Below, one piece after another: positions 11,419-49,392 of a stretch of DNA of 52,083 nt. The notes under the pieces were generated by a model. The model saw only the letters and a program-made list of their open reading frames with translations. It was not told the origin of the DNA and ran no database searches. Numbering within the stretch: the first letter of the stretch is position 1; each line of letters opens with the position of its first letter. A program made the translations under genes and the position numbers. Source of the DNA: a virus; the IMG/VR virus record IMGVR_UViG_3300028592_000017, positions 1 through 52,083 of that record; one strand, 5' to 3'.

Positions 11419-11484
11419 GCAATTCACGTGTAATTTACGCGCAATTTACGTGAAACTTAGGCGAAATTTACGCGCAATTTACGG
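11419..11484 (+). repeat. Tandem array of six 11-bp repeats (array 1)
   Basis: Six consecutive 11-bp units start at 11419, 11430, 11441, 11452, 11463 and 11474, with consensus GnAATTTACGy. Five match closely and the fourth is degenerate (GAAACTTAGGC). The period equals one helical turn, so all units face the same side of the DNA. This is the pattern of origin iterons or of centromere sites for RHH-type partition proteins. The region is non-coding. Confidence 0.85.
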
Positions 11485-12831: not shown

Positions 12832-13580
12832 CCTTCGCGATCGACCGCACAACCTGGCGCAAAGACCGCCGGCCGGTGGGCACTGGCTGGGATTACCGTG
12901 TGAATGGGAGGAAGGGTACAAAGCTCATCATCCACACGACCAACGGGAACCGCGGGTCATCCTTCGAGGGTGAGTGCAAGTACCTGTTTAACTCCAACAG
13001 CGTCGGCGCCAACTTTGTGGTCGGCAAGGCCGGCCAGATCGCCGAACTCGTCCCGGTGGCCCTGCGCGCCTGGCACGCCGGCGTCTGCAAGGCCGGCTGG
13101 ACCAACAACACGACGATCGGCATCGAGTGCCACCACGCCGTCGGCGAGACCTGGACCATCGCCCAGCGTAACGCCCTGACCTGGCTGGTCATCAAGCTCA
13201 TGGTCGAGGAGGGCATCGGCGTCGGCGACATCGACACCCACCGCGAAGTGGCCCTGCCGCCTGGCCGCAAGATCGACCCCAGCGACTGGACCAACCGCTC
13301 CTTCTACGACTGGCGCAACAGCCTGGACGATGTGTCCGAGATGCCCAGCTGGGCCTTTCCGGCCGACCCCGAGCTGCTCGACGAGTGGACGGCCAGCGGC
13401 AAGCAGTACAACGGCAATCTCTTCGCCCCAGGATGGGCGCTGACCCCGTTGTTCGCCCACACCGATGGGCAGCGCTATCAGATCTATGAGCGCACGGCGG
13501 CCCGGATCACCTACTCCGGCGCCATCGAGTGGCTGTTTACGGCCGAGGTCGAGGCCCTGAAGAAAGCCCGGGGGCTGTAG
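12828..13580 (+). CDS. Endolysin: N-acetylmuramoyl-L-alanine amidase
   Basis: The product is an Amidase_2/PGRP-type zinc amidase that would cut the bond between MurNAc and L-alanine in peptidoglycan. The zinc ligands and catalytic residues are in place: His36 in LIIHTTNG, His83 in AWHAG, Glu100 in IGIECHH, and a C-terminal THREVALPPGRKIDP with His138, Lys148 and Asp150. Residues about 165-250 form a separate C-terminal segment (LFAPGWALTPLFAHTDGQRYQIYERTAA style) that probably binds the cell wall. No signal peptide is seen, so it depends on the holin for release. Confidence 0.92.
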   Translation: MTFAIDRTTWRKDRRPVGTGWDYRVNGRKGTKLIIHTTNGNRGSSFEGECKYLFNSNSVGANFVVGKAGQIAELVPVALRAWHAGVCKAGWTNNTTIGIECHHAVGETWTIAQRNALTWLVIKLMVEEGIGVGDIDTHREVALPPGRKIDPSDWTNRSFYDWRNSLDDVSEMPSWAFPADPELLDEWTASGKQYNGNLFAPGWALTPLFAHTDGQRYQIYERTAARITYSGAIEWLFTAEVEALKKARGL

Positions 13581-31869: not shown

Positions 31870-31877
31870 GAGCACCT

Positions 31878-33230
31878 ATGCCACACGAGATGCTGATCGA
31901 GCACGGGTCGACCGTGCTAAACCTGAACGATATGAGCCGGGACTGGACCTACCGGATCGCCCACAACTCCTGGGCGCCGCGGGTGGCCCGGCGCTCGCGC
32001 TCGCTCCTCGCCGACTGGCCGTATGACACCACGGTCGAGGACTACGCGCTGATGGTCCAGGGGCAGACGCCCGAGGCATGCATGGACGCGCTGGCCGCGC
32101 TCGTGCTGGCCTTCGACAACGCCCGCAAGTTCGAGCAGGGGCTCTCCAGCACGCCCGTGATCTGGAAGGTCCGGCCCGAGGGCGCGCGCCAGATGCTGAG
32201 CAGCATGATCCTGCCCGACCCGGAGGACCCGGAGAATGTGTCGTTCGACACGTCGTTTCTCAAGGGCGCGGCAGGCAAGTTCCAGAAGGTCGTGCCGATC
32301 CAGTTCCGGCGCCGCCCGCTGCTCGTGCGCGCGGCCGAGGAGACCTCGACCATCAGCACGGCCGGGATGGGCACGGTGCAAACGGTCACATGGGCCGACA
32401 GCGCCGACACGGTCAGCCCGGTGCGGGTCCAACTCAACGCGGCGACCAACGGCGGCGTCATGCCCGACGTGCGCGCCGGCGTGGTGTTAATCAGCAACAC
32501 GGCCGCCGACATCCAGATCCACGAGGGCGAGTCGTTCACCATCGGCGCCCCCTGGACCTCGCAGGCCGACGTGGCCAACTACGCCTCGGGCGGCTCGGTG
32601 CTGCGCTACACGCCGGTCGTCACCACGCGGGTCGAGGTCCTCAAGTCCGGCATCTCGATCCCGGCCGGCACATGGGTGCCGGTGCTGCTCTGCCGCAACA
32701 ACACGGCCGGGCGGGCCTACCTGGCCGACATTGGCATGCGCTACCTCCAGCGCACCGTCTACACCGGCGTGGGCCTCATCGACCTGGCGGTCACCACCCC
32801 GACCCACGTCATCCTGCCCTCGGTCACCATCACCGACACGGCCACCTCGCTGTACATCGGCATCCAGGCCATCTCGACCGGCGGCACGCTCGACATTGAT
32901 GCGGTCGCCTTCCTGAACGTCGCCAACCCCGAGGCCTGCTTGATCGTCCACGGCGCCTCGGTCACCGCCCTGCCGGGCACCCGGGTGGACCTGAGGATCG
33001 ACCCGCAGTACCTGACCGGGCGCGAGCCCACGGCCCTGGCCTACTACGGGCCCTCGACGGCCGCGGCCTTCTCGACCATCGACGGCGACATCAGCATCGC
33101 GCTCTCGGGCGCGTCGGCGACGGCGCTGTGGCTGCCGCTGGATACCCTCAACGCCTGGACGCTCGACGACCGGCCGACTGCGGTCGAGTTCACCGCCTAT
33201 CGGCAGCGGGCCTCGCTGATCCCGCGCTAG
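31878..33230 (+). CDS. Distal tail protein (Dit-like)
   Basis: The 450-residue protein follows the tape measure. Its first 150 residues (EMLIEHGSTVLNLNDMSRDW, PVIWKVRPEGARQMLSS, FQKVVPIQFRRRPLL) fit a Dit-type N-terminal domain that forms the hexameric ring at the tail tip. A C-terminal beta-sandwich region (about 200-400) may bind carbohydrate. Assignment is by place and pattern. Confidence 0.7.
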   Translation: MPHEMLIEHGSTVLNLNDMSRDWTYRIAHNSWAPRVARRSRSLLADWPYDTTVEDYALMVQGQTPEACMDALAALVLAFDNARKFEQGLSSTPVIWKVRPEGARQMLSSMILPDPEDPENVSFDTSFLKGAAGKFQKVVPIQFRRRPLLVRAAEETSTISTAGMGTVQTVTWADSADTVSPVRVQLNAATNGGVMPDVRAGVVLISNTAADIQIHEGESFTIGAPWTSQADVANYASGGSVLRYTPVVTTRVEVLKSGISIPAGTWVPVLLCRNNTAGRAYLADIGMRYLQRTVYTGVGLIDLAVTTPTHVILPSVTITDTATSLYIGIQAISTGGTLDIDAVAFLNVANPEACLIVHGASVTALPGTRVDLRIDPQYLTGREPTALAYYGPSTAAAFSTIDGDISIALSGASATALWLPLDTLNAWTLDDRPTAVEFTAYRQRASLIPR

Positions 33231-36666: not shown

Positions 36667-37071
36667 TTACTGCGCCACTCCCTGGACCGGCTTTTGTGCC
36701 GGCATTGGAAGAATGCGCCGCCAGAGGATTATATCGGTTTGCCCAACACCCCATAGCTCAAACTGTTGCCACTCTGAGGAGAAGTGTTCCGGTGCCTGGA
36801 TCGTTAGCTCGCCCACCCGTGCGTCCCTGGCATCGACCAGGGCAACCGTGACGGCGCGCCTCGCCGTGATAACCTGGCGCTCACGATTGTGCTCCTCTAT
36901 CAGCGGAAGATAGCGCACGGCGTACTGCCGACCGTCAGCGAGGGCCTGGCCTAGAAGAACGGCCAGTTCGCGATTGATGCGCTCATGTGCGTCATCGCGC
37001 GCCTCGGGGAAGCGCTCGGCATAGTCGTACACCACAGTGTGAATGCCGGTCTTAGGATTCTCGGTACTCAC
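36667..37071 (-). CDS. Hypothetical protein (134 aa)
   Basis: The last gene of the leftward operon, its start overlapping the stop of the ATPase gene by 4 bp. It is alpha/beta with an N-terminal helix (AHERINRELAVLLGQALADG) and strands (RQVITARRAVTVALVDARDA). No family is recognised. The strict overlap suggests it works with the ATPase. Confidence 0.6.
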   Translation of the reverse strand: MSTENPKTGIHTVVYDYAERFPEARDDAHERINRELAVLLGQALADGRQYAVRYLPLIEEHNRERQVITARRAVTVALVDARDARVGELTIQAPEHFSSEWQQFELWGVGQTDIILWRRILPMPAQKPVQGVAQ

Positions 37072-38264
37072 TGCGCCACCTCCTCGGCAACAACTTCCGG
37101 TGTATTCTCGGCTATTTTCTGTAAAGCCTTTGCCGCAGCCGCCGCCGCCATCGTAGCCCGGATCTCCTTCGCCAGAAGCCGAGCGTTTTCCTTCCTCATA
37201 TCGACCTTGACCGCAATCTCGCTATCGGTCAGGCCCTCCATAATCCAGTAGCGGATTGCCGCCGCGCGCAACTCCGGCTGTTTCACGGAGGTGCTCCCTG
37301 GCGAAAACTCCCGAACTCCCAGCGTGGAATCCTCGGTTTTTTCTCCCTCGGAGCTGGGAGTTGGGAGTTTCCAACTCTGGAGCGAGCTCAGCGGGCCGGC
37401 GGCCAGCCGAGGGGCGGCGCTCAGATCGACGGCATAATGCTGACCGCCGTGGGCGACCACGCACGGCCGCGCCATCGTGATCATGGCCTGCCCCACTTCG
37501 ACGGTAATCTTCTTATCGGCGACCAAACGCTTGACAACATTCCGGGCGTCATTCCCCAGATAGATCCATAGGACGTTCTTCACCGCATCGCCATGTCCAT
37601 CGAGTCCGAGCGCGCCGACCCGGTCGGATTGCGGGAAGAACAGGACATGCACGTTGTATTCGCGGCCGACGCGGAGCAGGCGACGCAGCGGCACGCCGGC
37701 GTCGGGCAGCTCCTCCATGGTGTCATTGATCTCATCCCAGATCAGCCACAGGTCCGAGAAGATGGCATCGGGGTTGTCGCGTTTATGGATCCGGCGCCGA
37801 TTGAATTCGGTGAACACCGCCCGCAGTCCGGCCGCAATTCGTGTGTAGCCCGCGTCGTCATCCAGTCCGGCCGCGGCCAGGCCGCCCCACTTGCCGCGCC
37901 ACCACTTAGGATCGGCCACAAAGGCCTCGCCGTGGAGCAGGCGGGTAATTGCCTCGCCCGTCGTCGTCTTGCCCGCGCCGGTGTCGCCGATGATGCCGAT
38001 GTGCGGCGCAGTCTGGAGCAGCTGGGCGACCACAGCCTGGATCGGCGCGAGGGTGATGGATGGCGACATCGGCGGCTCCTGCTGTGGCGCGAGCTGCTGT
38101 TGACGCGGCTCATCCTTCGGCGGCTCCTGCCGGCGGCCAGGGAGACCGCCGACCAGGACGATGTTGGGGCGCAACTTGAACCACAGGAAGCCCGCGAGCG
38201 CCGCCACCACGAGGGCGACGGCGACGAGGATGACCTGGAGCGATTGGGCGGCATCTGGTGTCAT
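37068..38264 (-). CDS. Membrane-anchored P-loop ATPase (FtsK/HerA-like)
   Basis: Residues about 9-29 form one membrane helix. After a Gln/Pro linker, a P-loop ATPase domain follows, with Walker A GDTGAGKT (93-100) and Walker B LWLIWDEIN (Asp177, Glu178). The order fits FtsK/HerA/VirD4-type DNA or protein translocases. The C-terminus has an HTH-like stretch (TDSEIAVKVDMRKENARLLA). It is followed by a coupled gene and preceded by a polytopic membrane protein, so the pair may form a membrane channel for DNA handling or segregation. Substrate unknown. Confidence 0.75.
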   Translation of the reverse strand: MTPDAAQSLQVILVAVALVVAALAGFLWFKLRPNIVLVGGLPGRRQEPPKDEPRQQQLAPQQEPPMSPSITLAPIQAVVAQLLQTAPHIGIIGDTGAGKTTTGEAITRLLHGEAFVADPKWWRGKWGGLAAAGLDDDAGYTRIAAGLRAVFTEFNRRRIHKRDNPDAIFSDLWLIWDEINDTMEELPDAGVPLRRLLRVGREYNVHVLFFPQSDRVGALGLDGHGDAVKNVLWIYLGNDARNVVKRLVADKKITVEVGQAMITMARPCVVAHGGQHYAVDLSAAPRLAAGPLSSLQSWKLPTPSSEGEKTEDSTLGVREFSPGSTSVKQPELRAAAIRYWIMEGLTDSEIAVKVDMRKENARLLAKEIRATMAAAAAAKALQKIAENTPEVVAEEVAQ

Positions 38265-38273
38265 AGGAACCTC

Positions 38274-38921
38274 TTAGCGCTTGACCAGGCGCACGATGAT
38301 CACGCCGGTCAGAACGATCAGCCGCTCGGATGCAAGGGCGATAAAGGCACCCAGCAGGGTGAACAGAATCACGACATAGCCCTGGTAGGCCATACCGCGA
38401 GTCGCGGCGCCCCACTGGATGCCGGCGGCGCTGCTGACCACATCGAAGAGGGTAACCAGGAAGAGGACCGGCCAGATGATCCAGCGCAGCACCTTCCAGA
38501 TCTCGACCATCTTGTGGCGCAGCACCATCGCCTTCACGCGGGGAAGGTGCTGCTCACACAGCGAGATCCCAAGGTGGACGATCGCCGCCGGCACGACGGC
38601 CATGCCGATCCACTGATTGAGCGAGAGGATCGACAGATAGCCGTTCAGCACCCAGAGGCCAACCCAGACCAGTTCCAGCACGACCAGGGCTGAGATCAGG
38701 CCCCAGTACTGGTAGCGCTGGACCGCCTTGTCCTTGGAGATTGGCACCGGCTCGGCGCGCGTCGCGATGACCTTGCGCTGGCGAGCGGCGATGCTGGGGC
38801 GCCGGCGATCGGTGCGCTTCTTTTCTTCGGCGGGTGTGTGTTCTTGAGAGGGAGGCGCAGCGGACTTGAGGTTGCTGTTATCCAGCACCGCGGCGTTGAG
38901 GTCAAAAGCGGCGTCCGTCAT
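38274..38921 (-). CDS. Polytopic membrane protein (215 aa)
   Basis: After a charged cytoplasmic N-terminus (about 1-70) come four or five membrane segments (about 73-93, 103-121, 146-166, 181-198 and 201-213). It lies 9 bp upstream of the membrane-anchored ATPase gene and is probably its partner. No channel or transporter motif is recognised. Confidence 0.65.
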   Translation of the reverse strand: MTDAAFDLNAAVLDNSNLKSAAPPSQEHTPAEEKKRTDRRRPSIAARQRKVIATRAEPVPISKDKAVQRYQYWGLISALVVLELVWVGLWVLNGYLSILSLNQWIGMAVVPAAIVHLGISLCEQHLPRVKAMVLRHKMVEIWKVLRWIIWPVLFLVTLFDVVSSAAGIQWGAATRGMAYQGYVVILFTLLGAFIALASERLIVLTGVIIVRLVKR

Positions 38922-38930
38922 CGGGTCTAC

Positions 38931-38969
38931 CTACCTTTCCTGGTAGGCAGCCATGCTATACTTTGCCAT
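38931..38969 (-). CDS. Possible 12-residue leader peptide
   Basis: A minus-strand frame MAKYSMAAYQER, preceded by AGGAGA, ends in TAG about 9 bp before ATG 38921. Its codons lie over a 10-bp inverted repeat (38946-38955 and 38967-38976). It could be a leader that couples or attenuates translation of the membrane protein. It is short and may be chance. Confidence 0.3.
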   Translation of the reverse strand: MAKYSMAAYQER

Positions 38970-39074
38970 GGCTGCCGTCTCCTAAACGTTCCGGTGGCCC
39001 ACGCGCCAGACCGCTCCAACGGTGCTGGCGTTTATGTTGGCCACAGTATACCACCGGGCGCAATGGCGATCATC

Positions 39075-39293
39075 CTATGAGCGCTCGTGCGCCTCTTGAA
39101 GTTCATAGCCCAGGCGTTCCACATCGGCGTCGAGTTCCTCAATTCGCTGCTGGAGCGGCACAACTGCCTCCTCGACCGCCGCGCGGATAATGGCCGCAAG
39201 CCCCGCCATGTCGCGCCGTATAGGCGGAAGGAGTGGGTTGTCAGGGAAAATAAAATCCATAATCTGCCGTGCCCATTCTTCCGGAGTCTTCAT
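39075..39293 (-). CDS. Small coiled-coil protein (72 aa)
   Basis: ATG 39293 follows AGGAGG, deciding this start over in-frame starts inside the next gene. The product (MKTPEEWARQIMDFIFPDNP) ends in a helix with a heptad-like pattern (VPLQQRIEELDADVERLG). Such proteins are common in phage early regions but the function is unknown. Confidence 0.6.
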   Translation of the reverse strand: MKTPEEWARQIMDFIFPDNPLLPPIRRDMAGLAAIIRAAVEEAVVPLQQRIEELDADVERLGYELQEAHERS

Positions 39294-39303
39294 CCCTTCC
39301 TCC

Positions 39304-39699
39304 TTAGTCATCGTCGTCCAGAAACCCACTGCCGAAGCTGGCCACGTCGGCGGCCGCGGTCGGCGCGATGGTCGGCGGTGCGGGCGCAGCTGGCGCCGAT
39401 ATCGCACGTGCGACACCGAGCATCGCGGGCAGGGCGTTCTGCTGGGTCAGCAGCTCGAGCGCCGGCAGCAGGGCGACGCGCAGGCGCTGGGCCAGGGTGC
39501 GCGGGTCGAAGCCGGCCACCTCCGCCCCGCTGATCAGCGCCTCGCCGGCCAGGATCAGCAGCCCGCGCCGCGTCGACTCGGCCAGCAGCTCGGACTCGCT
39601 GCCGAACTGGGGCAGCGCCGCCAGGACCGCCTGGAGCAGCGCCACCTCGTCCGGGCCAAGCCGGGTAGACTTGGTGGCGCGCTGGACGGCCGGACTCAC
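39304..39699 (-). CDS. ParR-like partner protein (131 aa)
   Basis: GTG 39699 overlaps the stop of the ParM-like gene (GTGA). The small size, the order after the actin gene and the first half (GPDEVALLQAVLAALPQFGS, LAESTRRGLLILAG) fit a DNA-binding adaptor of ParMRC segregation systems. The C-terminus is Pro/Ala-rich and ends in DDDD, a tail that could touch the filament. Sequence similarity to known ParR is not evident, so the assignment is by context. Confidence 0.6.
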   Translation of the reverse strand: MSPAVQRATKSTRLGPDEVALLQAVLAALPQFGSESELLAESTRRGLLILAGEALISGAEVAGFDPRTLAQRLRVALLPALELLTQQNALPAMLGVARAISAPAAPAPPTIAPTAAADVASFGSGFLDDDD

Positions 39700-40871
39700 G
39701 ACGCGCTCCCCGCCGCCGCGTACACGACGGCGACCAGGGCGCCGGTGGCATTCAGCGTCAGGGCGAACTGGTCCGGCACCATGGTGTAGTTGCGCGGCGC
39801 CCGCTTGCCCATCGCGGCCGCCCGCTCCTCGATGGCGGCGCGCAGGCCGTCGAGCAGGACGCCGCCGCCGGTGAAGAGGACATAGCGCGACTGCTGCTGG
39901 AGGACCGGGAGCAGCCGCGCCACCAGGTCCTGGCCCTCGGCCGCGATGACCTGGTCGACCTCGGCGTCGATCGGGACGCGCACCCCCGACTCGCGGACCG
40001 TGCGCGAGATCAGCGCCTGCATCGCCTGGGCATCGTTGAGGCGCAGGTGGCCGAGCTGGGCGGCCAGCTGGCGGGCCATGGTCACCGTGCCGCGTCCGAG
40101 CTTCTCGCCGGTCATGCGGTAGGGCGCCACGTCCACGTCCGTGCGCTGCAAATCGCCGGTGCCGATGTCGACGATCGAGAGCGCCTCGATGCCGTCGTCG
40201 ACCGTCTGGCCGTTGGGCTGGCGCGACCAGACCAGATAGGTACCGATCGACTGGGCCTGGGGCATGATGGTCGAGTAGGTCAGCGTCCACCAGCTGACCT
40301 GGCCGTTCGACGCCGTGCGCGCGACTTCGAAGGTCTTGCCGAACAGGTGCTCCTTGATTGCCTGCTTCGTCTCCTTCGAGACGCCCAGCCGGTCGCCGCC
40401 GCGCATCAGCACGATCTCATCGTTGGGCACGGCCAGGCCGACCGCCAGGTTGTGGATGCCGGACTTGTAGCCGCCGGCGATCAGCGCCTCGACCAGGGCC
40501 GCCGCCAGGAAACTGATCTGGCGCGGGTCGCCCAGACGCTCCGAGGTCGTGCCGATCGGCAGCGCGTCGCCGTCCTGCCCCAGCGCCTCGGCGCCCGCCC
40601 AGAAGGCCGGTCCGCTGTTCACGCGGTAGCTCGTGATGCCGGCGCCGCCGCGGATCTCCTTGGCGGCCCGGTAGACGGTGGGGACCGCCTGGGTGACCAG
40701 CTCGCCGGCCGGGGTCAGCAGCGCGATCTTGGTGTGGCCGTTGCCGTTGTCCAGGCCGGCGGGGACCAGCGGCCCGGAGCCGGCGACGCGGATCGTGCTC
40801 GGGAGGCCGAGCGGGAGGTTGTCCTGGAGGTGGTCGAGGATCGTTCCGCCGCGTTGCGCTGTCAGGGTCAT
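39696..40871 (-). CDS. parM: ParM/StbA-like actin-fold segregation ATPase
   Basis: The actin fold is shown by phosphate-1 motif GLDNGNGHTKIA (Asp41), phosphate-2 motif VDIGTGDLQRT (Asp235) and the adenosine motif FTGGGVLLDG (about 333-342). Such proteins polymerise with ATP and push or pull plasmid copies apart through a partner bound to a centromere. At 391 residues it is slightly longer than R1 ParM. It starts with AAGGAGCAGG before ATG 40871. Two direct repeats lie in its promoter region. In phages, such filaments also centre or move genomes. Confidence 0.85.
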   Translation of the reverse strand: MTLTAQRGGTILDHLQDNLPLGLPSTIRVAGSGPLVPAGLDNGNGHTKIALLTPAGELVTQAVPTVYRAAKEIRGGAGITSYRVNSGPAFWAGAEALGQDGDALPIGTTSERLGDPRQISFLAAALVEALIAGGYKSGIHNLAVGLAVPNDEIVLMRGGDRLGVSKETKQAIKEHLFGKTFEVARTASNGQVSWWTLTYSTIMPQAQSIGTYLVWSRQPNGQTVDDGIEALSIVDIGTGDLQRTDVDVAPYRMTGEKLGRGTVTMARQLAAQLGHLRLNDAQAMQALISRTVRESGVRVPIDAEVDQVIAAEGQDLVARLLPVLQQQSRYVLFTGGGVLLDGLRAAIEERAAAMGKRAPRNYTMVPDQFALTLNATGALVAVVYAAAGSAS

Positions 40872-40894
40872 GGCCTGCTCCTTTGTCTACAGAT

Positions 40895-40954
40895 GTCATG
40901 ATATGCAGACAGTATAGCACAGATGTAGCACTTTCTTGTCACGATATGTAGACA
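40895..40954 (-). promoter_or_regulatory. Direct repeats around the parM-like promoter
   Basis: Two 17-bp copies differing at two positions (GTCAyGATATGyAGACA) lie at 40895-40911 and 40938-40954, 43 bp apart. They flank a minus-strand TATACT -10 element at about 40911-40916. This is a likely autoregulation site for the ParR-like protein or a small centromere. Confidence 0.7.
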
Positions 40955-40972
40955 CATCGTTACAATGTGGCG

Positions 40973-41608
40973 CTAGCCGCCGGAGACATCAATCAGGATG
41001 CGCTTGAAGTTCATTCCATCATAGATTGGAATGAGGTCATCGGGCTGGACGCGCGCATTGTAGTGCTCCTCACCACGCGGCCGATAGCGGAGCTCCCAGC
41101 GATCGCCACACTCGGCAACGCGAAGCAGGATTGAGCCGAACACCTCCTCCTCATAGACTTTCTGATACCGGCCAGCGACACAGATGGTCTTTTCGGTCAT
41201 CAAGGACTTCTCGAGGTGTGTCACCCGCCCTGGCGCGGTCTGGCCTTGCATGATCGCCTTCATCTCGCGGACGCTTTCAAGGAACTCATTGAAGAGCGCG
41301 TCGCTCATGGGCGCGGCCTTGGCCTGGGGCGTTGCCGGCGGAGCCGGGCGCCGAGGCGGAGAGTCATCGCGATCGGGCTGCACGCACCCGTTCGGCATGA
41401 TGAAGTAGCGCTTCTCCAGCTTCTCGATGTAGGCGACGAGCGACCGCATGTACCCGTTCGCCCCAAGCACAAACTCCAGCAGGGTGGTGTGCTGCTCGGG
41501 CGTCAGAGCATCGACGTAGAGCTCCACCCCGGTATCGGATTGCAAAACCGTCACGGCGGGGAGTTGGTCCAGACGGGCTTTGATGTCCTCAATATTTGGT
41601 CGGTCCAT
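40973..41608 (-). CDS. Phage protein of paired paralogues (211 aa)
   Basis: It starts MDRPNIEDIKARLDQL and contains NGYMRSLVAYIEKLEKRYF. The adjacent gene at 41619 has the same opening (MDRPNLESIKAR) and the same IAYIEELE helix, so the two are paralogues with different C-terminal domains. The C-terminal half here is beta-rich (TICVAGRYQKVYEEEVFGS). AAGGAGG precedes ATG 41608. Function unknown. Confidence 0.65.
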   Translation of the reverse strand: MDRPNIEDIKARLDQLPAVTVLQSDTGVELYVDALTPEQHTTLLEFVLGANGYMRSLVAYIEKLEKRYFIMPNGCVQPDRDDSPPRRPAPPATPQAKAAPMSDALFNEFLESVREMKAIMQGQTAPGRVTHLEKSLMTEKTICVAGRYQKVYEEEVFGSILLRVAECGDRWELRYRPRGEEHYNARVQPDDLIPIYDGMNFKRILIDVSGG

Positions 41609-41618
41609 CAGGTCCTCC

Positions 41619-42392
41619 TTATTCCGGCCAGTGCCAGGTGCCGGGCGTTGCGTCCGAGCTGCGGGTAACGTCGAGCCGAATGAACGCGCCGAGCTGGTTG
41701 AACACATGCAGGTCCAGCGTGATCACCTCGACGCCGGGTCCGTTGCCGCCCGGCGTGCTGCGCACCTCGATCACGGTGGCCGGCCGATGGGCGCCCTCGG
41801 GGTACTCGCCCTCCAGGCCGCGGAGCACGTAGTGGACGGTGTCGCCGGCCTCGGGCATATCCTCCTCGTCGATACCGGTCTCGAAGAGGTTGATTTCCTC
41901 CAGGTTGTCCAGCGACGGATAGGGATGGGCAAACTCGACCGGCGGACGGTTCAACCACGTGTCGCGGGCTTCACGCATCGCCCCACGTAGCACGCCCTCG
42001 CGGACCTCGTCGGGGATTGGGCCAGGATCAGGCCAATTGCTGAGCACAACGCGCGGCTCGATGCTGATCTCCTGCGGCTTCCGCCCACGATACCACGCAG
42101 TCAGCGCCTCCCACCGCTCGGGCGTCATCACCATCAGCTCGTCGTACCACATCATGCCGCCTGCCGCCTGGACGAGCTGGTGCAGACGGTCGCGGCCCTC
42201 CTCCAGCTCCTCGATGTAGGCGATGAGCGCCGGCACATCCTCCCTGGCCAGGCCGGTCACCAGCATGTCGGTGTCATCCGGCTGGGGCGGGACGGACATA
42301 CGAAAATGGTTTGCGTTTTGGGCGACCGCGCAGATCGCTTTGTCGGCGGCCTGGGCGCGGGCCTTGATGGACTCAAGGTTTGGACGATCCAT
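41619..42392 (-). CDS. Phage protein, paralogue of the preceding gene (257 aa)
   Basis: The N-terminal domain MDRPNLESIKARAQA plus VPALIAYIEELEEGRDRLHQ is shared with the gene at 40973. The middle has WYDELMVMTPERWEALTAW. The C-terminus (AGDTVHYVLRGLEGEYPEGA, ATVIEVRSTPGG) looks like a small beta barrel. Such multi-domain early proteins occur in many phages without assigned roles. The start at 42392 is favoured over 42422 by similarity to its paralogue. Confidence 0.65.
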   Translation of the reverse strand: MDRPNLESIKARAQAADKAICAVAQNANHFRMSVPPQPDDTDMLVTGLAREDVPALIAYIEELEEGRDRLHQLVQAAGGMMWYDELMVMTPERWEALTAWYRGRKPQEISIEPRVVLSNWPDPGPIPDEVREGVLRGAMREARDTWLNRPPVEFAHPYPSLDNLEEINLFETGIDEEDMPEAGDTVHYVLRGLEGEYPEGAHRPATVIEVRSTPGGNGPGVEVITLDLHVFNQLGAFIRLDVTRSSDATPGTWHWPE

Positions 42393-42861
42393 GGGGCAGG
42401 TCCTCCGTAGGAGTGTAGTCAAAGGGCGCGCAGCACATACCGCAGAAGGTATCGATACAGGCCGTCCCGCAGCGGGGGCAGACGAGCATTGTGGTGTAGC
42501 CGTGCTGGATGGTCTTAGGGAAGGGGCGCAGCGGGGCGTTCAGCTCGCCGAGCGACACAAGGCGGCCTCCAGCGGTCCAGGTGTAGGGGAGCGGCCGTTT
42601 CTCGGCCATCACCGCCCGCTGCGCTGGGTACCACGCCGCCCGGTCCTCGTCCAGGGCCGCCTGGATGGCATCGGCGATCACCTGCTTCAGGTCCAGCGAC
42701 TCAGACCCGCGCGGCTCGGCCGGCCAGGCCAGCAGCACGTCAAAATCGAACGGGTACCAGGTGAAGGCAATCCAGCCCAGGCAAAGCCGGGAGGTGTAGC
42801 CGCGGCGGAAATACACGCCGCCCCAGGCCCCAACGGAGATCAGCAGGCTCCGAGGTTTCAT
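42373..42861 (-). CDS. Phage protein with C-terminal zinc ribbon (162 aa)
   Basis: It starts MKPRSLLISVGAWGGVYFRR and continues RLCLGWIAFTWYPFDFDVLL, an N-terminal pattern seen in other phage early proteins. The C-terminus has CPRCGTACIDTFCGMCCAPF, a four-Cys zinc ribbon. Its 3' end overlaps the next gene by 20 bp. Function unknown. Confidence 0.65.
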   Translation of the reverse strand: MKPRSLLISVGAWGGVYFRRGYTSRLCLGWIAFTWYPFDFDVLLAWPAEPRGSESLDLKQVIADAIQAALDEDRAAWYPAQRAVMAEKRPLPYTWTAGGRLVSLGELNAPLRPFPKTIQHGYTTMLVCPRCGTACIDTFCGMCCAPFDYTPTEDLPHGSSKP

Positions 42862-43325
42862 GGCTTCACCCAGCTCCAGCGCCCCCAGGACTCCTGCCGC
42901 ACCTGGTCGTAGGTAAAGAGCACCGCCAGGGCGTTCTCATTGGCGCTCAGGAATCCATCGTTCAGCTTGCCATCCGGCTCCAGGCAGTGCTGCTGCACCA
43001 TGTCCTTGAGCGCTTCTTCCAGCTCAAACGCCTTCTGTGCCGGCGAGACGCCGTGGGCCCACTGCACGGTCACCCGCACGGGCGGCGTGCCGGCGCGGGC
43101 CAACATATCGAACTGGATGTAGTTTTTGGCGTTGCCGCGCTCCAGCATCGCCGAGGCCTCGGCGGCCAGGTACGCGATCGCCGGCGAGGTTCCCGTGGCG
43201 GTCATCCCGTCTGCGGTGAATTCCATGTGCGTCCACTCAAACCCCGGCGCTGAGCGCTCGGCGGCAGCAACGGCCAGCCGGCGGTCAATCCACCAGTGGG
43301 CCAGGCGGTCGAGGATAGTTTTCAT
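42858..43325 (-). CDS. Hypothetical protein (155 aa)
   Basis: The gene overlaps both neighbours by 4 bp. The product is alpha/beta with a helical N-terminus (ILDRLAHWWIDRRLAVAAAE) and strands around VRVTVQWAHGVSPAQKAFEL. No family is recognised. Confidence 0.6.
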   Translation of the reverse strand: MKTILDRLAHWWIDRRLAVAAAERSAPGFEWTHMEFTADGMTATGTSPAIAYLAAEASAMLERGNAKNYIQFDMLARAGTPPVRVTVQWAHGVSPAQKAFELEEALKDMVQQHCLEPDGKLNDGFLSANENALAVLFTYDQVRQESWGRWSWVKP

Positions 43326-43582
43326 AGTGCCTCCAGAAGTGCATCGGCTTCATCGCGCAGGCGCTGGAATTTGCTCCAGGCGTGTTGGTAATCCTCCCAG
43401 GCCTTGGGATCAGGGAGTTGCTTGATGAGTGCCTGACTCTTTGCGGCGGCGACCTGGGCGCGGGCGTTCAGGGTGCGAACACGGACCGACCCGATCATCT
43501 GCCGCGATGGCTGGGCCGGCATCAGCGCGATCAGCGCCAGCAGTTCGGCGCGGGTCAGGTCGGATAACGTTGGGAGCTTCAT
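43322..43582 (-). CDS. Hypothetical helical protein (86 aa)
   Basis: A short helical protein (DLTRAELLALIALMPAQPSR, WSKFQRLRDEADALLEAL), overlapping its neighbours by 4 bp. No motif is recognised. Confidence 0.55.
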   Translation of the reverse strand: MKLPTLSDLTRAELLALIALMPAQPSRQMIGSVRVRTLNARAQVAAAKSQALIKQLPDPKAWEDYQHAWSKFQRLRDEADALLEAL

Positions 43583-44358
43583 GCCGCCACCGCCTTCGGC
43601 GCGACCTTCTTCTTCGCTGGCTTGGTCTTGCTGAAGCGCTTCGGATTCGTGCAGGTGCTGAAGTGGCTGACCTCCGTCTTATTGCCCTGGGCGTCCGCAT
43701 CGTAGGGACATGGCTTGTTGTTGGCCGTGCGCCCCCAGACGATGGGCGCATCGCACTCGTCACAGCGAGCCACGCGGGTTGACGGGGCAGCCACTGGCAG
43801 CGGCGTCAGGTCAGGGCGCGGGTCCACAGGCGCAGCGGTGGCCAGGCCGAGCAGCTGGGGCTGGCCAGGGATGCGCAGGGCCGGGAGCTTCTGGCGGCGC
43901 TCGACCAGGCGGGCCGGCAGCTCCCACGACCAGTCGACCGGCAGCTGGGCAAGATCCCAGATCAGGGCATTCGCCTCGTCGATCGCAATCGTGATCCGCG
44001 CGCACGCCGTCGTCAGCTGCTGCTCGGCCACCAGGACCTGGGCCAGCGCATCACCACGGGCCGCTGTGGCCGCTTCCCGGCGCCGCTGGACCTCCCAGCG
44101 CTCGTCATTGGCCAGGCAGGCCGCACGTGCCGCCAGGAGCGTGTGGTAGCGCGTCAGGGTCTCAAGGCTCGCGTGCTCCAGGTGGGTAAAAAAGGCGGCG
44201 TAGGCGCGCGCCAGGGCCTCCTCCTGCTCGATGATGCGCTCCTCAAGGACCTCGCGCGTCCTGGCCGGCTGGCCCAGGCAGCGCGGACACAGCCGCGGCG
44301 CCGTCTCGGCGATGGTTGTGGGGTAGCCGCAGATCGCACAGCTAGTAGCTATCGACAT
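43579..44358 (-). CDS. Zinc-ribbon and coiled-coil protein (259 aa)
   Basis: The N-terminus carries a CAICGYPTTI...RLCPRC zinc ribbon (residues about 7-27). A long helical region follows (about 35-160), with a coiled-coil appearance. A second Cys cluster lies at CDECDAPIVWGRT...CTNPKRF (about 198-235), followed by a Lys-rich tail. It directly follows the replication gene, overlapping its stop, so it may assist replication or load proteins on DNA. Role unknown. Confidence 0.65.
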   Translation of the reverse strand: MSIATSCAICGYPTTIAETAPRLCPRCLGQPARTREVLEERIIEQEEALARAYAAFFTHLEHASLETLTRYHTLLAARAACLANDERWEVQRRREAATAARGDALAQVLVAEQQLTTACARITIAIDEANALIWDLAQLPVDWSWELPARLVERRQKLPALRIPGQPQLLGLATAAPVDPRPDLTPLPVAAPSTRVARCDECDAPIVWGRTANNKPCPYDADAQGNKTEVSHFSTCTNPKRFSKTKPAKKKVAPKAVAA

Positions 44359-47300
44359 CGTGGGCCTCCAGTTCGGTTTGTTGGACGGTCGGGTGGAGTG
44401 CCAGCCAGCGGTCGGCCCAGCGCCGAGCCTCAGTGGCGGCCGCCTCGTCGAGGGCGTAGATGCGGACGCGCTTGCCGAGCCCGACCCGGTGCTGCTTACT
44501 GGTCATTTTGAGGCCAAGCTGGCCCAGAAACGCGGAAACAAACTGCATCGGCTTGAGGTCAATGTCTTTGTTGACGGTCAGACCCAGCAGGCTCCAGATC
44601 TGCGCCCGCTGCCCCTGGATGATGGCCGCAAAGGTGGGCGGGATCGTCACAGTCCGGGATCTCATGTTAATCATGGCTCCGGTTGTGACACCCCCCTTCT
44701 CAGGCTCCTGAACAAACTGGATGTGCTTCAGGATCTCCCGGCGCAGTTTTGCTTGCAGCTGGTAGTTGGCCTTGTCCGGCAGCAGGGCATGGCGCTCCAG
44801 CTCGTCGGCCGCGGCGGCCGCCTCCGGGCTGAGCAGCATGGCCAATCGAGCAGCGTTGCGACGCAGGCCGGCGTCGTCCGCCTTGACCAGGACCTCGGTG
44901 ATGTCGGCCGGCTCGATCTCGTAGAACTGACAGAGGTCGTACTGCTTGAGCTGGGCCATTTCCTCAGCGGTGTGGGTCTGCTTCTGACGTAGCTCCTTGG
45001 CCTCGTAGCCCGCCAGTGGGGTAACCGTGCGCAACTGCTGGACGTGCTGCGCGAACACCAGCTCCTTGCCAGCGTTGTAGATCTCGCGGGCCTCGGCCAG
45101 CTCGGCCTGGGTGACGTCATCGGCATGCACCAGCCGGTGGCCGTCAGCATGGGCGGCGGCGTAGAACTGGTCGCGCAGGTTGTTTAGCGAGCGATTGCGC
45201 TCGCTTTCCACATCGGCCCACAGCGCCAGGTACTCGTCATCTTTCGAGTACATCTCGCCGGCGGCGTCAATGCCGATCAGCAGGCCGGTCTCGGTGGCGT
45301 TGCGGACGCACTGCTCTTTCAGCAGCGCGATCGCCGTCGGCTTATCGTGGCGCTGCGAGCTGATCCAGCAGTGGACGGTTTTGGTCTTGGGATGTCGGAC
45401 CCGCCCGGCCTGCTGGAGCATATCGCGGTGGGTGGTCGGCTGGCCGTGGCCAAACACGAACACCGCGTCAAAGTGGACGGTGTCGATCGAGACACCGGTG
45501 CCAAGGCTCGGGCTGTAGACCAGCACGTCCACGTCGCGCACCCGCTCGTTGATGTACTGGATGAACTCCTGGACCTCCGCCTCGGCGCTGTTCTCCCCAT
45601 GGATGCCGAAGGCGCGCACCTCCGGGTATTCCAGCCCGATCGACTGGATCAGGTTCTTGACCATCTTGATGCTATTGGCGGCCACGGCCACCTTCTGGCC
45701 GGAGCGGATGGCCTCGAACAGCGCGGCCTTCAGCTCCGCCTCCAGGTCGTAGGCGACAAAGGTCTTGTCGGCCGGCCGAGCCGTGTTGACGATGGTGTGC
45801 AGCTGATCTGCGCCGAGCACGCGGCTGGCGTAGCCGTGCGTGATCCGGCCGGCGTCCGCGTCGAGGTAGATTACCTGGCCGGCCGTCGTCTGGAAGTGCC
45901 GGAGGTACTCCAGCACGCCGGATCGCTTGGGCTTGACGGTCGAGCCGGTGGCGTGCTGGAGGATCTGCTCCGACTCATCCAAAATGACATAATCAAATTG
46001 CTGGCGGGTCGAGAGTTTCTCGATCGAGTCCAGGCAGATGGCCAGGCGGGTGCAGTCGGTCAGGTCGGCCTGGTCCTCGTCGGTGCCGTTGACCACATCC
46101 TCGTAGTAGGTCAGGCCGAGGCGCTCGGCCATGTTGCGCAACAGGTTGCGGCGGTGGCCGACCACCAGCACCGAGGACTCGGCGGCGAGCCGACGCTTCA
46201 ACAGCTCGGTCTTGCCGGTGCCGATCGGGCTCTTGATAATAATGCCCCGCGCGTCCGGCAGCTCGTGGACCGCCGTGGTGATGTGGCGCGCCTCGACATG
46301 GGTGTGGACCGGCAGCTGATAGGCCGGCTCATCGATCCAGCCGGCGGCGCGGATGTCGTTCATGGCGTGCGCGAAGTTGCCGCCGTGGTCAAACGTCACA
46401 TGGACCTGGAAGGGCGTGGCGCAGGCGCAGGCCCCGCGGCCGTGGTGCAGCGGGTCGTCGAGGTCCCAGATGTAGGCGACGTTCTTCCCCGCGTCGATGA
46501 CGACGCCGGCGGCGTGCTTGCGCGAGCTGTCCGGGTGGCGCATCCGCCGGCCATCCCACAGGTAGCCCACGCGCTCCAGCTCGGCGGCGATGTCGTGGTC
46601 GGCGTTGTAGGCGGCGACGGAGGGGTATTTGCTGGCCGTGTGCTCGGTCGTCCTGCGGGCGGCGCGGTGGATGTGGACGGTGGCGTCGGCGTTGTAGGCG
46701 GCCAGCTCGTCGGCGAAGTCGTCCAGGCTGTAGGTCCGCTCCACGTTGGTCAGCGTCCTGGCCGGCCGGGGCGGCTGGTGCTTATGGTTGAGCGTGCCCG
46801 GGGCGCGGAAGACGCGGGCGGCGTCGCTCAGCTGGTCGACGTGCCAGCCGTATTTGCTGGCCTGCTGCTGGATCGACCACTGCACGGCCTCGACCGCCTC
46901 GACGACGTTGGTCGTCTCGGTCGGGTGGTCGCGGTGCAGGTACCAGTAGGGCTGGATGCCGCCGCCGGTGTGCAGGACAAACGAGGGCGGCGGGAGGTGG
47001 CTGATCAGGTTCATGGCGTCCTGGGTGGTCGGCGGCAGATTGGGCTTGGCGTGCACGCCCTCGCCGGTGTCGATGTCCGCCCAGATGACCGCGATCGAGG
47101 TGACATCGGTGGACATGCCGCGCTTGCCCCGTGGCGGCCGCGCCGCCTGGGTGCCCAAAGAGACATAGACATGGCCGGCCTTGCGCTTGCGCTCGATGAA
47201 GCTGATGGCCTTGTCCAGCTCGTGGCCCTGGAACGGCGTGAACGTGCCGATCTTGGCATCGTCCGGGCGGTCCCAGACGACATACCAGCCCCACGGGTTG

Positions 47301-47401
47301 GGGTGGACGTGGCTGAGCCAGGAGCGCAGGCCGTGCGGGTCGGCGGGAGCGCTCGACGAGCGGCGTGGGCCAGGGGGTGAATCGGCTAGTGCTGCGACCA
47401 T
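44342..47401 (-). CDS. Replication protein: primase (AEP-like) fused to SF2 helicase
   Basis: The 1019-residue protein begins with a primase-polymerase-like domain. WADIDTGEG (Asp109, Asp111) gives the metal site, HTGGGIQPYWYLHRD the His motif, and DAARVFRAPGTLNHK a later conserved segment. The second part is a helicase of the herpesvirus origin-binding/CyRepA1 type: Walker A SPIGTGKT (391-398), Walker B VILDESEQ (475-478) and motif VI QQAGRVRHP (about 664). Such fusions initiate plasmid and phage replication. ATG 47401 has CGGAGGG upstream, preferred over the TTG start at 47425. Confidence 0.85.
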   Translation of the reverse strand: MVAALADSPPGPRRSSSAPADPHGLRSWLSHVHPNPWGWYVVWDRPDDAKIGTFTPFQGHELDKAISFIERKRKAGHVYVSLGTQAARPPRGKRGMSTDVTSIAVIWADIDTGEGVHAKPNLPPTTQDAMNLISHLPPPSFVLHTGGGIQPYWYLHRDHPTETTNVVEAVEAVQWSIQQQASKYGWHVDQLSDAARVFRAPGTLNHKHQPPRPARTLTNVERTYSLDDFADELAAYNADATVHIHRAARRTTEHTASKYPSVAAYNADHDIAAELERVGYLWDGRRMRHPDSSRKHAAGVVIDAGKNVAYIWDLDDPLHHGRGACACATPFQVHVTFDHGGNFAHAMNDIRAAGWIDEPAYQLPVHTHVEARHITTAVHELPDARGIIIKSPIGTGKTELLKRRLAAESSVLVVGHRRNLLRNMAERLGLTYYEDVVNGTDEDQADLTDCTRLAICLDSIEKLSTRQQFDYVILDESEQILQHATGSTVKPKRSGVLEYLRHFQTTAGQVIYLDADAGRITHGYASRVLGADQLHTIVNTARPADKTFVAYDLEAELKAALFEAIRSGQKVAVAANSIKMVKNLIQSIGLEYPEVRAFGIHGENSAEAEVQEFIQYINERVRDVDVLVYSPSLGTGVSIDTVHFDAVFVFGHGQPTTHRDMLQQAGRVRHPKTKTVHCWISSQRHDKPTAIALLKEQCVRNATETGLLIGIDAAGEMYSKDDEYLALWADVESERNRSLNNLRDQFYAAAHADGHRLVHADDVTQAELAEAREIYNAGKELVFAQHVQQLRTVTPLAGYEAKELRQKQTHTAEEMAQLKQYDLCQFYEIEPADITEVLVKADDAGLRRNAARLAMLLSPEAAAAADELERHALLPDKANYQLQAKLRREILKHIQFVQEPEKGGVTTGAMINMRSRTVTIPPTFAAIIQGQRAQIWSLLGLTVNKDIDLKPMQFVSAFLGQLGLKMTSKQHRVGLGKRVRIYALDEAAATEARRWADRWLALHPTVQQTELEAHDVDSY

Positions 47402-47469
47402 GGGGAGACCCTCCGACAAACACAAGAGACCGCCCAGCCATTGCGGCCGCGCGGTTGAGAGGAAGAATA

Positions 47470-47575
47470 TTGATTGACCCTCGTGTTTGTGGTAGTATCT
47501 CGGTTAACAAATTCCCGGCTCGAACTTGGACGAAACGTGACGCTCACCGTGGCCCCGGTGGGCGTTTCTGTTTTA
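47470..47575 (+). ncRNA. Candidate counter-transcribed RNA upstream of the replication gene
   Basis: TTGATT (47470-47475), a 17-bp spacer and TAGTAT (47493-47498) form a moderate rightward promoter. About 40 bp later a 10-bp stem with one G-U pair (47540-47549 and 47556-47565) runs into TTCTGTTTT, an intrinsic terminator. No gene follows rightward. The predicted RNA of about 70 nt is antisense to the leader of the leftward replication mRNA, the layout of plasmid copy-control RNAs. It is a prediction from elements only. Confidence 0.5.
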
Positions 47576-47734
47576 GGGTGCCTCATATAGTCCTCCTTCT
47601 GGGCGTGCGGATGCCGCGCTGGGCGCGGTGCGCAGCGGGCGAGGGTGGTCTTGTTCAGAACTGATCAGGGTAGGGGTTGAGGTGCGACACCGACGCGACT
47701 CGGATGCGACACGCCGGCCTGGGGTGGTGCGACT

Positions 47735-47980
47735 TTAGTGCGACCGGCTCGCCAGCTGGCGTCCGGGGAGTGCGACGGCCAGTGACACGAGGATCGGCAA
47801 TGATGGTCTGGCCAGGCCGATGGGATGCCACTGCGGCTTCTTTGGGTTGAGCCGCTTCCGGCGCCGGCCGAGCCGGCCACCGACCGCGTCGCAGCAGCGG
47901 CAGCGCGCCCAGCGAATTCCATCCAGCTCGCGGATTTCGGCCGGGACGTAGAGCGCCCCGGTGGTTGGGCAGATGTGCAT
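47735..47980 (-). CDS. Small zinc-binding-like protein (81 aa)
   Basis: ATG 47980 follows GGAGG. The product (MHICPTTGALYVPAEIRELD) has a Cys cluster (CPTTG then CRCCDA), followed by a basic segment (GRLGRRRKRLNPKKPQW). The overlapping opposite-frame ORF is low-complexity and is rejected. It lies between the SOS-controlled HTH gene and the replication gene. Function unknown. Confidence 0.5.
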   Translation of the reverse strand: MHICPTTGALYVPAEIRELDGIRWARCRCCDAVGGRLGRRRKRLNPKKPQWHPIGLARPSLPILVSLAVALPGRQLASRSH

Positions 47981-48019
47981 AGCGACCTCCAGGGTAGACG
48001 GAAACATCCAGCGCGCCCA

Positions 48020-48260
48020 GGGCGGCCGGTGAAGGTCAAGGGTATCCAGATTGGATCTGGTGATAGGAGACGAGGGGCGAACCCTCGCAAAATGCCTGCG
48101 CGACGGGGACGTCGCCGGCGAAACACCACAGGCCCGGCGGGCGGACCGTGGGAAACAACCCCCAGCTGGTGGCCGGGGAACCTCTCATGCGGCTGTTAAT
48201 GCGGCCTATGATAAAACAACCTGCACGAAAAATCCAGATCCAGAAAAATGCCAGGGTCAC
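48020..48260 (+). ncRNA. Candidate structured RNA or mobile-element remnant
   Basis: This 240-bp stretch lacks a convincing gene but has many stems: CCAGAT/ATCTGG near 48049, CGAGGG/CCCTCG at about 48072-48088, GCGAC/GTCGC, GGTG/CACC closing a set, and a CCGGGGAACCTCT segment before GCGGC. The plus-strand composition recalled the omega RNA (HEARO) type, but no IscB or TnpB gene is present. This resemblance is from memory and is weak evidence. Confidence 0.25.
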
Positions 48261-48279
48261 TACAGCATGAGCAGGAGCA

Positions 48280-48510
48280 TCAGGAGGGGTGGGAGATGAG
48301 CTTGTAGCGCAGGCGACACCGGTAGTCGCTGGTGATTTTGAGGTAGCCCTCACGATCCATGCGCCGAATGAGCCGCCAGGTGTAGGGTTCCGACAGGTCG
48401 ACAAGCTGTGCGATCTCGCGCACAGTGGCGTTCGGGAGCAAATCGATGGCGGCGAGGATGTCCTCATAGTACTGAGGTATCTTCGTCTCACCCCCAGGGA
48501 TGGTGTTCAT
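48280..48510 (-). CDS. Winged-helix DNA-binding protein (76 aa)
   Basis: The protein has a HTH/winged-helix core: PQYYEDILAAIDLLPNATVR then EIAQLVDLSEPYTWRLIRRM then a wing (YLKITSDYRCRLRY). It is the first gene after the SOS-box promoter and would be expressed on DNA damage. It may regulate the leftward operon or act as an antirepressor. Confidence 0.7.
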   Translation of the reverse strand: MNTIPGGETKIPQYYEDILAAIDLLPNATVREIAQLVDLSEPYTWRLIRRMDREGYLKITSDYRCRLRYKLISHPS

Positions 48511-48772
48511 AGGTGATACTCTCTCTGCCGCGACTTGCTATCATCCCCCCATCATCTAGGTAAAAAGAACTAAAGGAGTTTTATTTCTTTTATTGCCTGA
48601 CTATGGTATGATGCAAATAACGGCGCTACTACGTAGTGACGTTGGCCTTGCCTTGATTGGTAAGGTTGGTGCATGGCGGGGGGCGTGTAGTGTCCGGCAA
48701 AGAAACTGGCACGTCCTCCCCACCCGCTGCTCACTGCTCATGAGCAAAAAGGCTTATTGCCTTTGATGAGCC

Positions 48773-48815
48773 ATTATAACCTACATGCCTTAAGATTTGT
48801 ACGAACACCTGTTCG
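48773..48815 (-). promoter_or_regulatory. SOS (LexA-like) box overlapping a leftward promoter
   Basis: On the minus strand, CGAACAGGTGTTCG (48802-48815) matches the Gram-positive-type LexA consensus CGAAC-N4-GTTCG exactly. It lies just upstream of a perfect -10 TATAAT (48773-48778), with only a weak -35 between, so LexA would block polymerase. It would control the leftward block beginning at 48510. The rest of 48511-48979 holds a hairpin at 48736-48771 and two rightward terminators, but no gene that I can see. Confidence 0.75.
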
Positions 48816-48894
48816 CAAAGCATTACGGCAAAATGACTCCGTAAATTTGTAAGGTTCCAAAGTTGGCTTGTCCGGCTGGCGAATCTGGTTTGTT

Positions 48895-48946
48895 AGGCGG
48901 TTGCGCAGCGAGGACCTCGACAATTCTCACACGACCGCCTGTTTTT
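48895..48946 (+). terminator. Rightward terminator 1
   Basis: AGGCGGT (48895-48901) pairs with ACCGCCT (48934-48940), followed by GTTTTTG. It would stop rightward transcription before the divergent control region. Confidence 0.65.
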
Positions 48947-48973
48947 GTGCCTGCGCTAACGGAGCAGGCAACC

Positions 48974-49016
48974 GCCGGTCTAGCGACTAGTCCTCGCTAG
49001 ACCGGCTTCGCTTTTT
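48974..49016 (+). terminator. Rightward terminator 2
   Basis: A 13-bp perfect stem (48974-48986 and 48994-49006) is followed by TTCGCTTTTT. It also overlaps the 3' end of the leftward HTH gene, whose last codons lie in the stem. It would keep antisense transcription out of that gene. Confidence 0.88.
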
Positions 49017-49198
49017 GATGAGGCATACTCAGCTTCGAAACGCAATACTTCGCGCTCCTCAATAACGACTGGACCTTTCGGGCCTCCTAGCCGGTCTGCC
49101 TTCAACTTTTTCTCTTTGATGAGCTGATAGACGCGCGCTGGAGTTAGGTCTAGTCTCTCGGCCACATCAGGCACCGTCATCGGATTTTCAAAAGCCAT
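48980..49198 (-). CDS. Small HTH regulator or excisionase-like protein (72 aa)
   Basis: Residues about 7-33 form an HTH_17/MerR-like unit (MTVPDVAERLDLTPARVYQL) followed by a short wing-like segment (GPKGPVVIEEREVLRFE). This family includes excisionases and phage regulators. It is transcribed leftward from a promoter within a 17-bp inverted operator that also holds the rightward promoter. It could be the switch repressor or recombination directionality factor. ATG 49198 follows TAGGAGG. Confidence 0.7.
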   Translation of the reverse strand: MAFENPMTVPDVAERLDLTPARVYQLIKEKKLKADRLGGPKGPVVIEEREVLRFEAEYASSKSEAGLARTSR

Positions 49199-49222
49199 AG
49201 AACCCTCCTAGCCGTTTTAGTA

Positions 49223-49305
49223 AGAATACTTGATCGTTTGACCCTTGTCAAGGATAAAATATCATAAAATTTGACTCTTGACAAGGGTCAAACACATGCT
49301 ATACT
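49223..49305. promoter_or_regulatory. Divergent promoters inside a 17-bp inverted operator
   Basis: GTTTGACCCTTGTCAAG (49236-49252) and its exact complement (49277-49293) face each other 24 bp apart. Rightward: TTGACA (49278-49283), 16-bp spacer, TATACT (49300-49305). Leftward: TTGACA (read from 49251 to 49246), 17-bp spacer, TATTCT (49228 to 49223). Each -35 lies inside an operator arm, so one repressor could shut both. A partial third copy (TTTGACTCTTGACAAG) overlaps the right arm, making it more palindromic. Confidence 0.9.
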
Positions 49306-49392
49306 CCCCTTAGTTGATAGGTTTCCAGTCTTGCCGGACACAGAACCCCTTCAGCTAAATGCATCAACCTTTACCCAACAGGAGGCAGGGCC

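Follow-up and report, generated by a model that had tools for sequence, protein, structure and literature searches.

How does a tailed phage persist in its host when a full set of virion genes shares the genome with replication and segregation genes of plasmid type? We addressed this question in the IMG/VR virus record IMGVR_UViG_3300028592_000017, analysed as the whole virus record of 52,083 bases (hereafter the window), for which an initial annotation had suggested a phage-plasmid lifestyle. The answer we favour, with a probability of about 0.74, is that the window is a circular plasmid prophage, i.e., a temperate tailed phage of the Chloroflexota kept as a low-copy circular plasmid; it is possibly also able to integrate, which overlaps with the plasmid-prophage reading. 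On this reading the window is the whole or most of the phage genome. Its rightward genes run from approximately 49.4 kb to the right end and then from base 1 to 35.7 kb, and include two DNA methyltransferases, a tyrosine recombinase, an endolysin, and terminase, portal, capsid and tail genes. The leftward block, from approximately 49.2 to 35.8 kb, comprises the replication and segregation genes. The main genes of the window are as follows, the last four forming a quartet:

Positions 14617 to 35000, plus strand: virion cassette with TerS, TerL, portal, protease/scaffold, major capsid protein (MCP), tape measure and tail genes; a homologous cassette is present in the relatives G001 to G003.
Positions 12828 to 13580, plus strand: endolysin (amidase).
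Positions 44342 to 47425, minus strand: Rep, a CyRepA1-family plasmid replication protein with a primase-like N-terminus and a helicase (NCBIfam NF042913, phrog_2478, phrog_4913 and motifs).
Positions 39696 to 40871, minus strand: ParM-type actin, recognised by its fold and its Herpetosiphon plasmid relatives.
Positions 39304 to 39699, minus strand: ParR-like adaptor with an acidic C-terminal tail, 34-41% identical to its counterpart directly downstream of the actin gene on plasmids of Herpetosiphon.
Positions 38274 to 38921, minus strand: small membrane protein, third gene of the quartet, recognised by position, hydrophobic segments and counterparts in related loci.
Positions 37068 to 38264, minus strand: membrane-anchored FtsK/HerA-like ATPase, fourth gene of the quartet, recognised by Walker motifs and a remote plasmid FtsK match.

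The kinds of genes by which phage-plasmids are recognised occur together in the window, namely virion and packaging genes (terL, portal, MCP, tape measure and endolysin), a plasmid replication protein (CyRepA1) and partition genes (a ParM fold with a syntenic adaptor). The replication protein, initially described as a primase-helicase, was confirmed as such: it scores 331 bits against NCBIfam NF042913 (CyRepA1), for which the curated cut-off is 200, and its N-terminal primase-like region matches phrog_2478 and carries the motif WADID. Its relatives in annotated records are on plasmids, two of Candidatus Chlorohelix allophototropha (Chloroflexia) and many from cyanobacteria, and its phage relatives include RepA of N15, PY54 and VP882, plus other phages. 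Only one of 350 Chloroflexota genomes passed the CyRepA1 cut-off, with contig coordinates matching the Chlorohelix plasmids. This cut-off was passed by no protein of 34 further virus contigs, of which most have a related terL, so Rep does not characterise the phage lineage as a whole. No close relatives of either the window Rep or the actin were found in the scanned viral contigs. The relatives in Herpetosiphon and Chlorohelix support the poorly known host group that had been proposed, and the host is most likely a member of the Chloroflexota, class Chloroflexia. The terminase has relatives on 337 virus contigs in IMG/VR, indicating a large phage lineage, and the actin module occurs in few of those tested.

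The sequence-profile matches of the actin are weak (phrog_691 'partition protein', E 0.0012; ALP_N, 13.3 bits, below cut-off), yet its AlphaFold model, with a mean predicted local distance difference test score (pLDDT) of 78, has a clear ParM fold. The best structural matches were Ta0583, ParM, Alp7A and AlfA, ahead of MreB and Hsp70, and the comparison with Dh-cParM1 gave Z 26.9 (structure comparison, VIA). The ParM-like label was therefore sound, in preference to another member of the ASKHA superfamily, and the matches are those of the ParM-type actin motor that defines type II (ParMRC) partition systems. Going by the model, the protein is a putative ATP-driven filament former that would stabilise a plasmid. 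Its relatives in annotated plasmids are two H. aurantiacus proteins, 53% identical on pHAU01 and 39% on pHAU02; further relatives are on plasmid-sized contigs of other Herpetosiphon, and a GTDB scan with one genome per species returned Herpetosiphon loci only. No match to the actin was found in phage records. A profile search detected it in 11 of 350 Chloroflexota genomes, including copies in other large genomes without the partner genes. Among these, the window-family actins L100, L101, L102 and L103, three of which are on contigs of megabase size, have no adaptor, membrane protein or ATPase neighbours and, by analogy with CorM of Anabaena, could possibly have a cytoskeletal use.

The adaptor gene overlaps the end of the actin gene, and its product has an acidic C-terminus and an N-terminus that on inspection resembles a ribbon-helix-helix. 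No match to it was found in the profile libraries searched, and its structural model (pLDDT 58, no PDB match) was too poor for a meaningful fold search. Of the ParR-like partner first proposed, the position, the overlap and the identity to plasmid counterparts stand, and the fold was not confirmed; the product is plausibly ParR. The membrane ATPase that had been noted was recovered, with GDTGAGKTT as Walker A motif and a hydrophobic N-terminal stretch in the sequence. Its own family matches are below cut-off and one plasmid counterpart matches FtsK_SpoIIIE above it; profile comparison with the plasmid FtsK proteins gave a remote relationship (66% probability), and identity to the ATPases of integrated prophages is 24-25%.

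Genes for a small membrane protein and an ATPase of FtsK/SpoIIIE type follow those for the actin and adaptor on the closed plasmids pHAU01 and pHAU02 and on additional contigs of Herpetosiphon; in pHAU01 the membrane protein and ATPase genes are on the opposite strand. The window has the same order, with perhaps one extra small open reading frame (ORF) intervening; such an ORF, at 39075-39416 between the adaptor and membrane genes, has no counterpart in the related loci looked at. The same quartet order recurs in related phages with a second actin family, which profile comparison relates to that of the window with 97% probability. The quartet loci counted include near-identical orthologues in sister species, so that not all are independent. 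Different parts seem, from the sequences, to have been exchanged within one quartet layout. Bacillus phages provide known cases of FtsK-like genes next to genes for segregation (PMC9658697). We tentatively propose, as an idea more doubtful than probable, that the quartet of Chloroflexia plasmids and phages may act as a segregation machine of its own kind: its actin spindle would be coupled to a DNA pump anchored in the membrane and would thereby move replicons through the septa of filamentous cells, with at least two actin and two ATPase families swapped within the layout.

Three virus records, G001, G002 and G003, share the virion cassette of the window (terL 79-80%, portal 58-59%, MCP 62-64% identity), and the values for G003 are 79%, 59% and 62%. 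G003 corresponds to a contig of 46,634 bp in the SPAdes assembly of H. geysericola DSM 7119 (PMC4653791). The ends of this contig overlap by exactly 127 bp, as do those of none of the four other contigs of the assembly that were tested. G003 resembles the window in its virion cassette, in the place and order of its own quartet, and in having no chromosomal flanks. It differs in having the other actin family (24% identity to that of the window), in that DnaB and another gene replace CyRepA1, and in that no integrase or recombinase was matched with the recombinases searched. G001 and G002 are in contigs of 131,884 and 166,834 bases, and carry a serine integrase (identified by an N-terminal motif) and no actin. 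Closure also occurs, with overlaps of 97-127 bp, in three metagenomic contigs that have a related terL and lack the actin (G362, G376 and G385); metagenomic closure alone is therefore no proof of a plasmid, and what counts for G003 is that it forms a contig of its own in the assembly of an isolate. G003 also has a Prok-JAB gene beside a gene that on inspection is ThiF-like (L014:61-1534), with similar genes in G001 (30341-31907); together with the PRTRC_D-like actin of G003 this pair resembles the PRTRC plasmid cassette.

An AT-rich intergenic region of the window contains direct repeats that are the first and third strongest periodic spots of the record:

Positions 11419 to 11483: array of approximately six direct repeats of 11 bp (GCAATTTACGC), putatively a centromere or iterons.
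Positions 11572 to 11622: second 11-bp repeat array (ATCCTGTTGGT).

In nine of ten plasmid-type loci, direct repeats of 10-11 bp were found in the 300-430 bases around and upstream of the parM start, each repeat-bearing locus scoring better than nearly all of 500 shuffles. In G003, too, an 11-bp array adjoins the quartet, at 29,532-29,587. Judged by their sequence, the 11-bp arrays are candidate centromeres, or alternatively replication iterons or arm sites of the recombinase.

Several observations weigh against the plasmid state of the window. No terminal overlap or circular closure of the 52,083-base record was found, and the actin is present in only three of the 28 contigs tested, the window among them. 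Some phages for which no plasmid state is described also have CyRepA1-like helicase segments. Repeats directly upstream of the window parM did not rise above shuffles, and the two 11-bp arrays are far from that gene. A tyrosine recombinase is present in the window, and actin quartets of the G003 type occur in integrated prophages, one in the closed chromosome of H. aurantiacus (G007:C1, ~743-780 kb, with a recombinase near tRNA-Asn) and one in G279 (G279:C3, ~247-284 kb, between two copies of a 90-bp tRNA-Phe repeat). The quartet is thus compatible with integration, and the quartet alone is no proof of a plasmid state. The suggested phage-plasmid lifestyle withstood the two refuting conditions named with it, since the actin is a ParM by fold and G003 is a closed circle in an isolate assembly; for this record it is probable rather than proven, in view of the missing terminal repeat and the tRNA-integrated quartets.

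The recombinase and the DNA directly after it are as follows:

Positions 9143 to 10363, plus strand: Xer-like tyrosine recombinase, a dimer resolvase or integrase (Pfam PF00589; XerC model below cut-off; relatives inside prophages).
Positions 10378 to 10433: perfect 22-bp inverted repeat with a 12-base spacer, directly after the recombinase gene; a terminator or a recombination site.

The full virion cassette and one tyrosine recombinase do occur in the same record, as was first stated, and the integrase label for the latter is doubtful. The protein scores best with XerC models, far below cut-off, and has the catalytic motifs. Relatives with 51% identity are found in the two integrated prophages; the one in G279 is approximately 3.6 kb inside the prophage, and a different recombinase abuts the tRNA-Phe repeat. 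The window recombinase may therefore be a dimer resolvase, since its relative is not the enzyme adjacent to the attachment (att) site in G279, and resolvases of this kind are described for plasmid prophages (PMC8026635). Both prophages have the window-like recombinase, an endolysin (58% identity), a quartet and a separate second recombinase. The window is uninterrupted through its own recombinase gene, with phage genes on both sides.

Among the alternatives, a credible one, short of even odds, is a phage that alternates, being integrated or capable of integration through the 9143-10363 recombinase, with a plasmid phase kept by the quartet in the manner of the SXT/R391 partition genes. The presence together of recombinase, Rep and partition genes would suit such a cycle, as would the integrated prophages that bear quartets, and SXT/R391 integrative conjugative elements are described as replicating and being actively partitioned (PMC4489591). 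No attachment site was found, however: the att sequences at tRNA-Asn and tRNA-Phe in the integrated relatives are unmatched in the window, and an enzyme that may be a resolvase speaks less clearly for integration.

We consider it rather unlikely that the window is an ordinary integrating temperate phage, whose actin pair would act only after induction, in placing or spreading replicating DNA, with CyRepA1 as its lytic replication protein. There is a precedent in AlpC-AlpA of prophage CGP3 of Corynebacterium glutamicum (PMC4446434), and the tRNA-integrated quartets and the catalytic motifs of the tyrosine recombinase fit this account. The order of motor then adaptor in the window is nevertheless that of plasmid parMR and the opposite of alpAC, whose reverse order was used by its authors as an argument against segregation (PMC4446434). 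Moreover, the closest relatives of the actin and adaptor are on plasmids, Rep belongs to a family of plasmid replication proteins, no integrase was matched in the closest circular relative, and the position of the recombinase relative in G279 does not favour the account. That the block came from a plasmid and the record is a chimera or a plasmid-phage co-integrate is very improbable: the actin and Rep do have their relatives on plasmids and most virion-related contigs lack both, but a block of this kind adjoins the tail genes at the same position in G003, a helix-turn-helix (HTH) gene of the block is conserved with G003, and the GC content of the block is like that of the virion genes. A linear plasmid of N15 type was rejected, as no protelomerase was recognised among the scanned proteins.

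The plasmid-prophage reading has close parallels. The plasmid prophages of the Bacillus cereus group, vB_BtS_B83 and relatives, likewise have siphovirus-type genomes of approximately 50 kb with a ParM-like protein, a small adaptor and one or more Xer-type recombinases, and are kept as plasmids (PMC8026635). Their host phylum is unrelated to that of the window, which differs further in its CyRepA1 Rep with a primase-like domain, and in a quartet that includes a membrane protein and an FtsK/HerA ATPase, with an adaptor that has no profile-library match. The plasmids pHAU01 and pHAU02 share with the window the actin (53% and 39%), an adaptor 38-40% identical and the adjoining membrane protein and FtsK genes; in contrast, the window Rep is unmatched in that genome, its ATPase is only remotely related, and the plasmid repeats are directly upstream of parM. 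N15, PY54 and VP882 are phage-plasmids of linear form, whose hairpin ends are generated by a protelomerase. Their RepA shares a related helicase region with Rep (23-24% identity over ~43% of Rep), and the window differs from them in having no recognised protelomerase. The AlpC-AlpA pair of CGP3 is, like that of the window, a phage-encoded actin with a DNA-binding adaptor, DNA binding by the window adaptor being putative; in CGP3 the adaptor gene comes before the actin gene and the pair acts in lytic replication of an integrated prophage (PMC4446434).

The remaining features of the leftward block concern its control and its ends:

Positions 47386 to 47586, minus strand: leader ORF of 66 codons with a strong ribosome site, overlapping the Rep start.
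Positions 47539 to 47566, plus strand: terminator-like hairpin inside the leader ORF, possible end of an antisense RNA.
Positions 48280 to 48510, minus strand: small winged-helix regulator (HTH_24 above cut-off).
Positions 48803 to 48814: SOS-like box, GAACACCTGTTC, of putative function.
Positions 48980 to 49198, minus strand: excisionase/MerR-like HTH protein (HTH_17 above cut-off), with a 43% counterpart at the same place in G003.
Positions 49236 to 49293: 25-bp inverted repeat between divergent promoter-like sites, candidate lysogeny-switch operator.
Positions 36667 to 37071, minus strand: last gene of the leftward operon, 134 amino acids, with no family match in the profile searches.
Positions 40973 to 41707 and 41619 to 42422, leftward: neighbouring genes with similar stretches (MDRPNIEDIKARLDQL and MDRPNLESIKARAQA) and a shared 41-bp repeat, likely tandem duplicates.

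The leader ORF and Rep may be translationally coupled, given their overlap. In the Synechocystis plasmid pSYSA a small ORF precedes the CyRepA1 gene, as in the window, and an antisense RNA has been shown to act there (PMC9978351), whereas in the window such an RNA is only a candidate. The antisense copy-control RNA of the initial annotation was not confirmed: the hairpin is strong and on the strand opposite to Rep, but its fold z is only -1.2 and no promoter match was found for the putative RNA at the leader ORF. Similarly, of the proposed SOS-box promoter, the box fits GAACN4GTTC but the case for a promoter is weak: two such words were observed in the window against 0.39 expected, and no perfect GAACN4GTTC was found near lexA in two Herpetosiphon genomes, only imperfect GAAC half-sites. 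No tRNA genes (ARAGORN) or RNA families (Rfam) were found in the window, and no convincing reading frame crosses the junction when its ends are joined.

As a plasmid prophage, the window would be maintained as follows. Rep would open and prime replication, ParR would bind an 11-bp repeat array, for which that at 11.4-11.6 kb is the best candidate, and ParM filaments would drive sister copies away from each other. Together, the membrane protein and the ATPase of FtsK/HerA type may act as a membrane-anchored DNA pump, which would either clear copies from the closing septum or pass copies between the cells of a filament. Dimers would be resolved by the Xer-like recombinase, which may also allow integration, and the divergent operator at 49.2-49.3 kb would switch between the maintenance operon and the early genes.

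Plasmid prophages are a known kind of element; the novelty is in the host group, in a Rep of CyRepA1 type within this lineage of phages, and in the repeated occurrence of the quartet. No published phage-plasmid of Chloroflexota turned up in the literature searched, nor is the phylum mentioned in the main text of an IMG/VR survey of phage-plasmid-like elements. Among relatives that share the virion cassette, the quartet is present in one that is a closed circle, and a serine integrase without actin in two others, a natural contrast that makes the question of what makes a phage a plasmid testable in cultured Herpetosiphon strains. The recurring four-gene layout, in turn, suggests that a DNA pump may be part of segregation in these filamentous bacteria.

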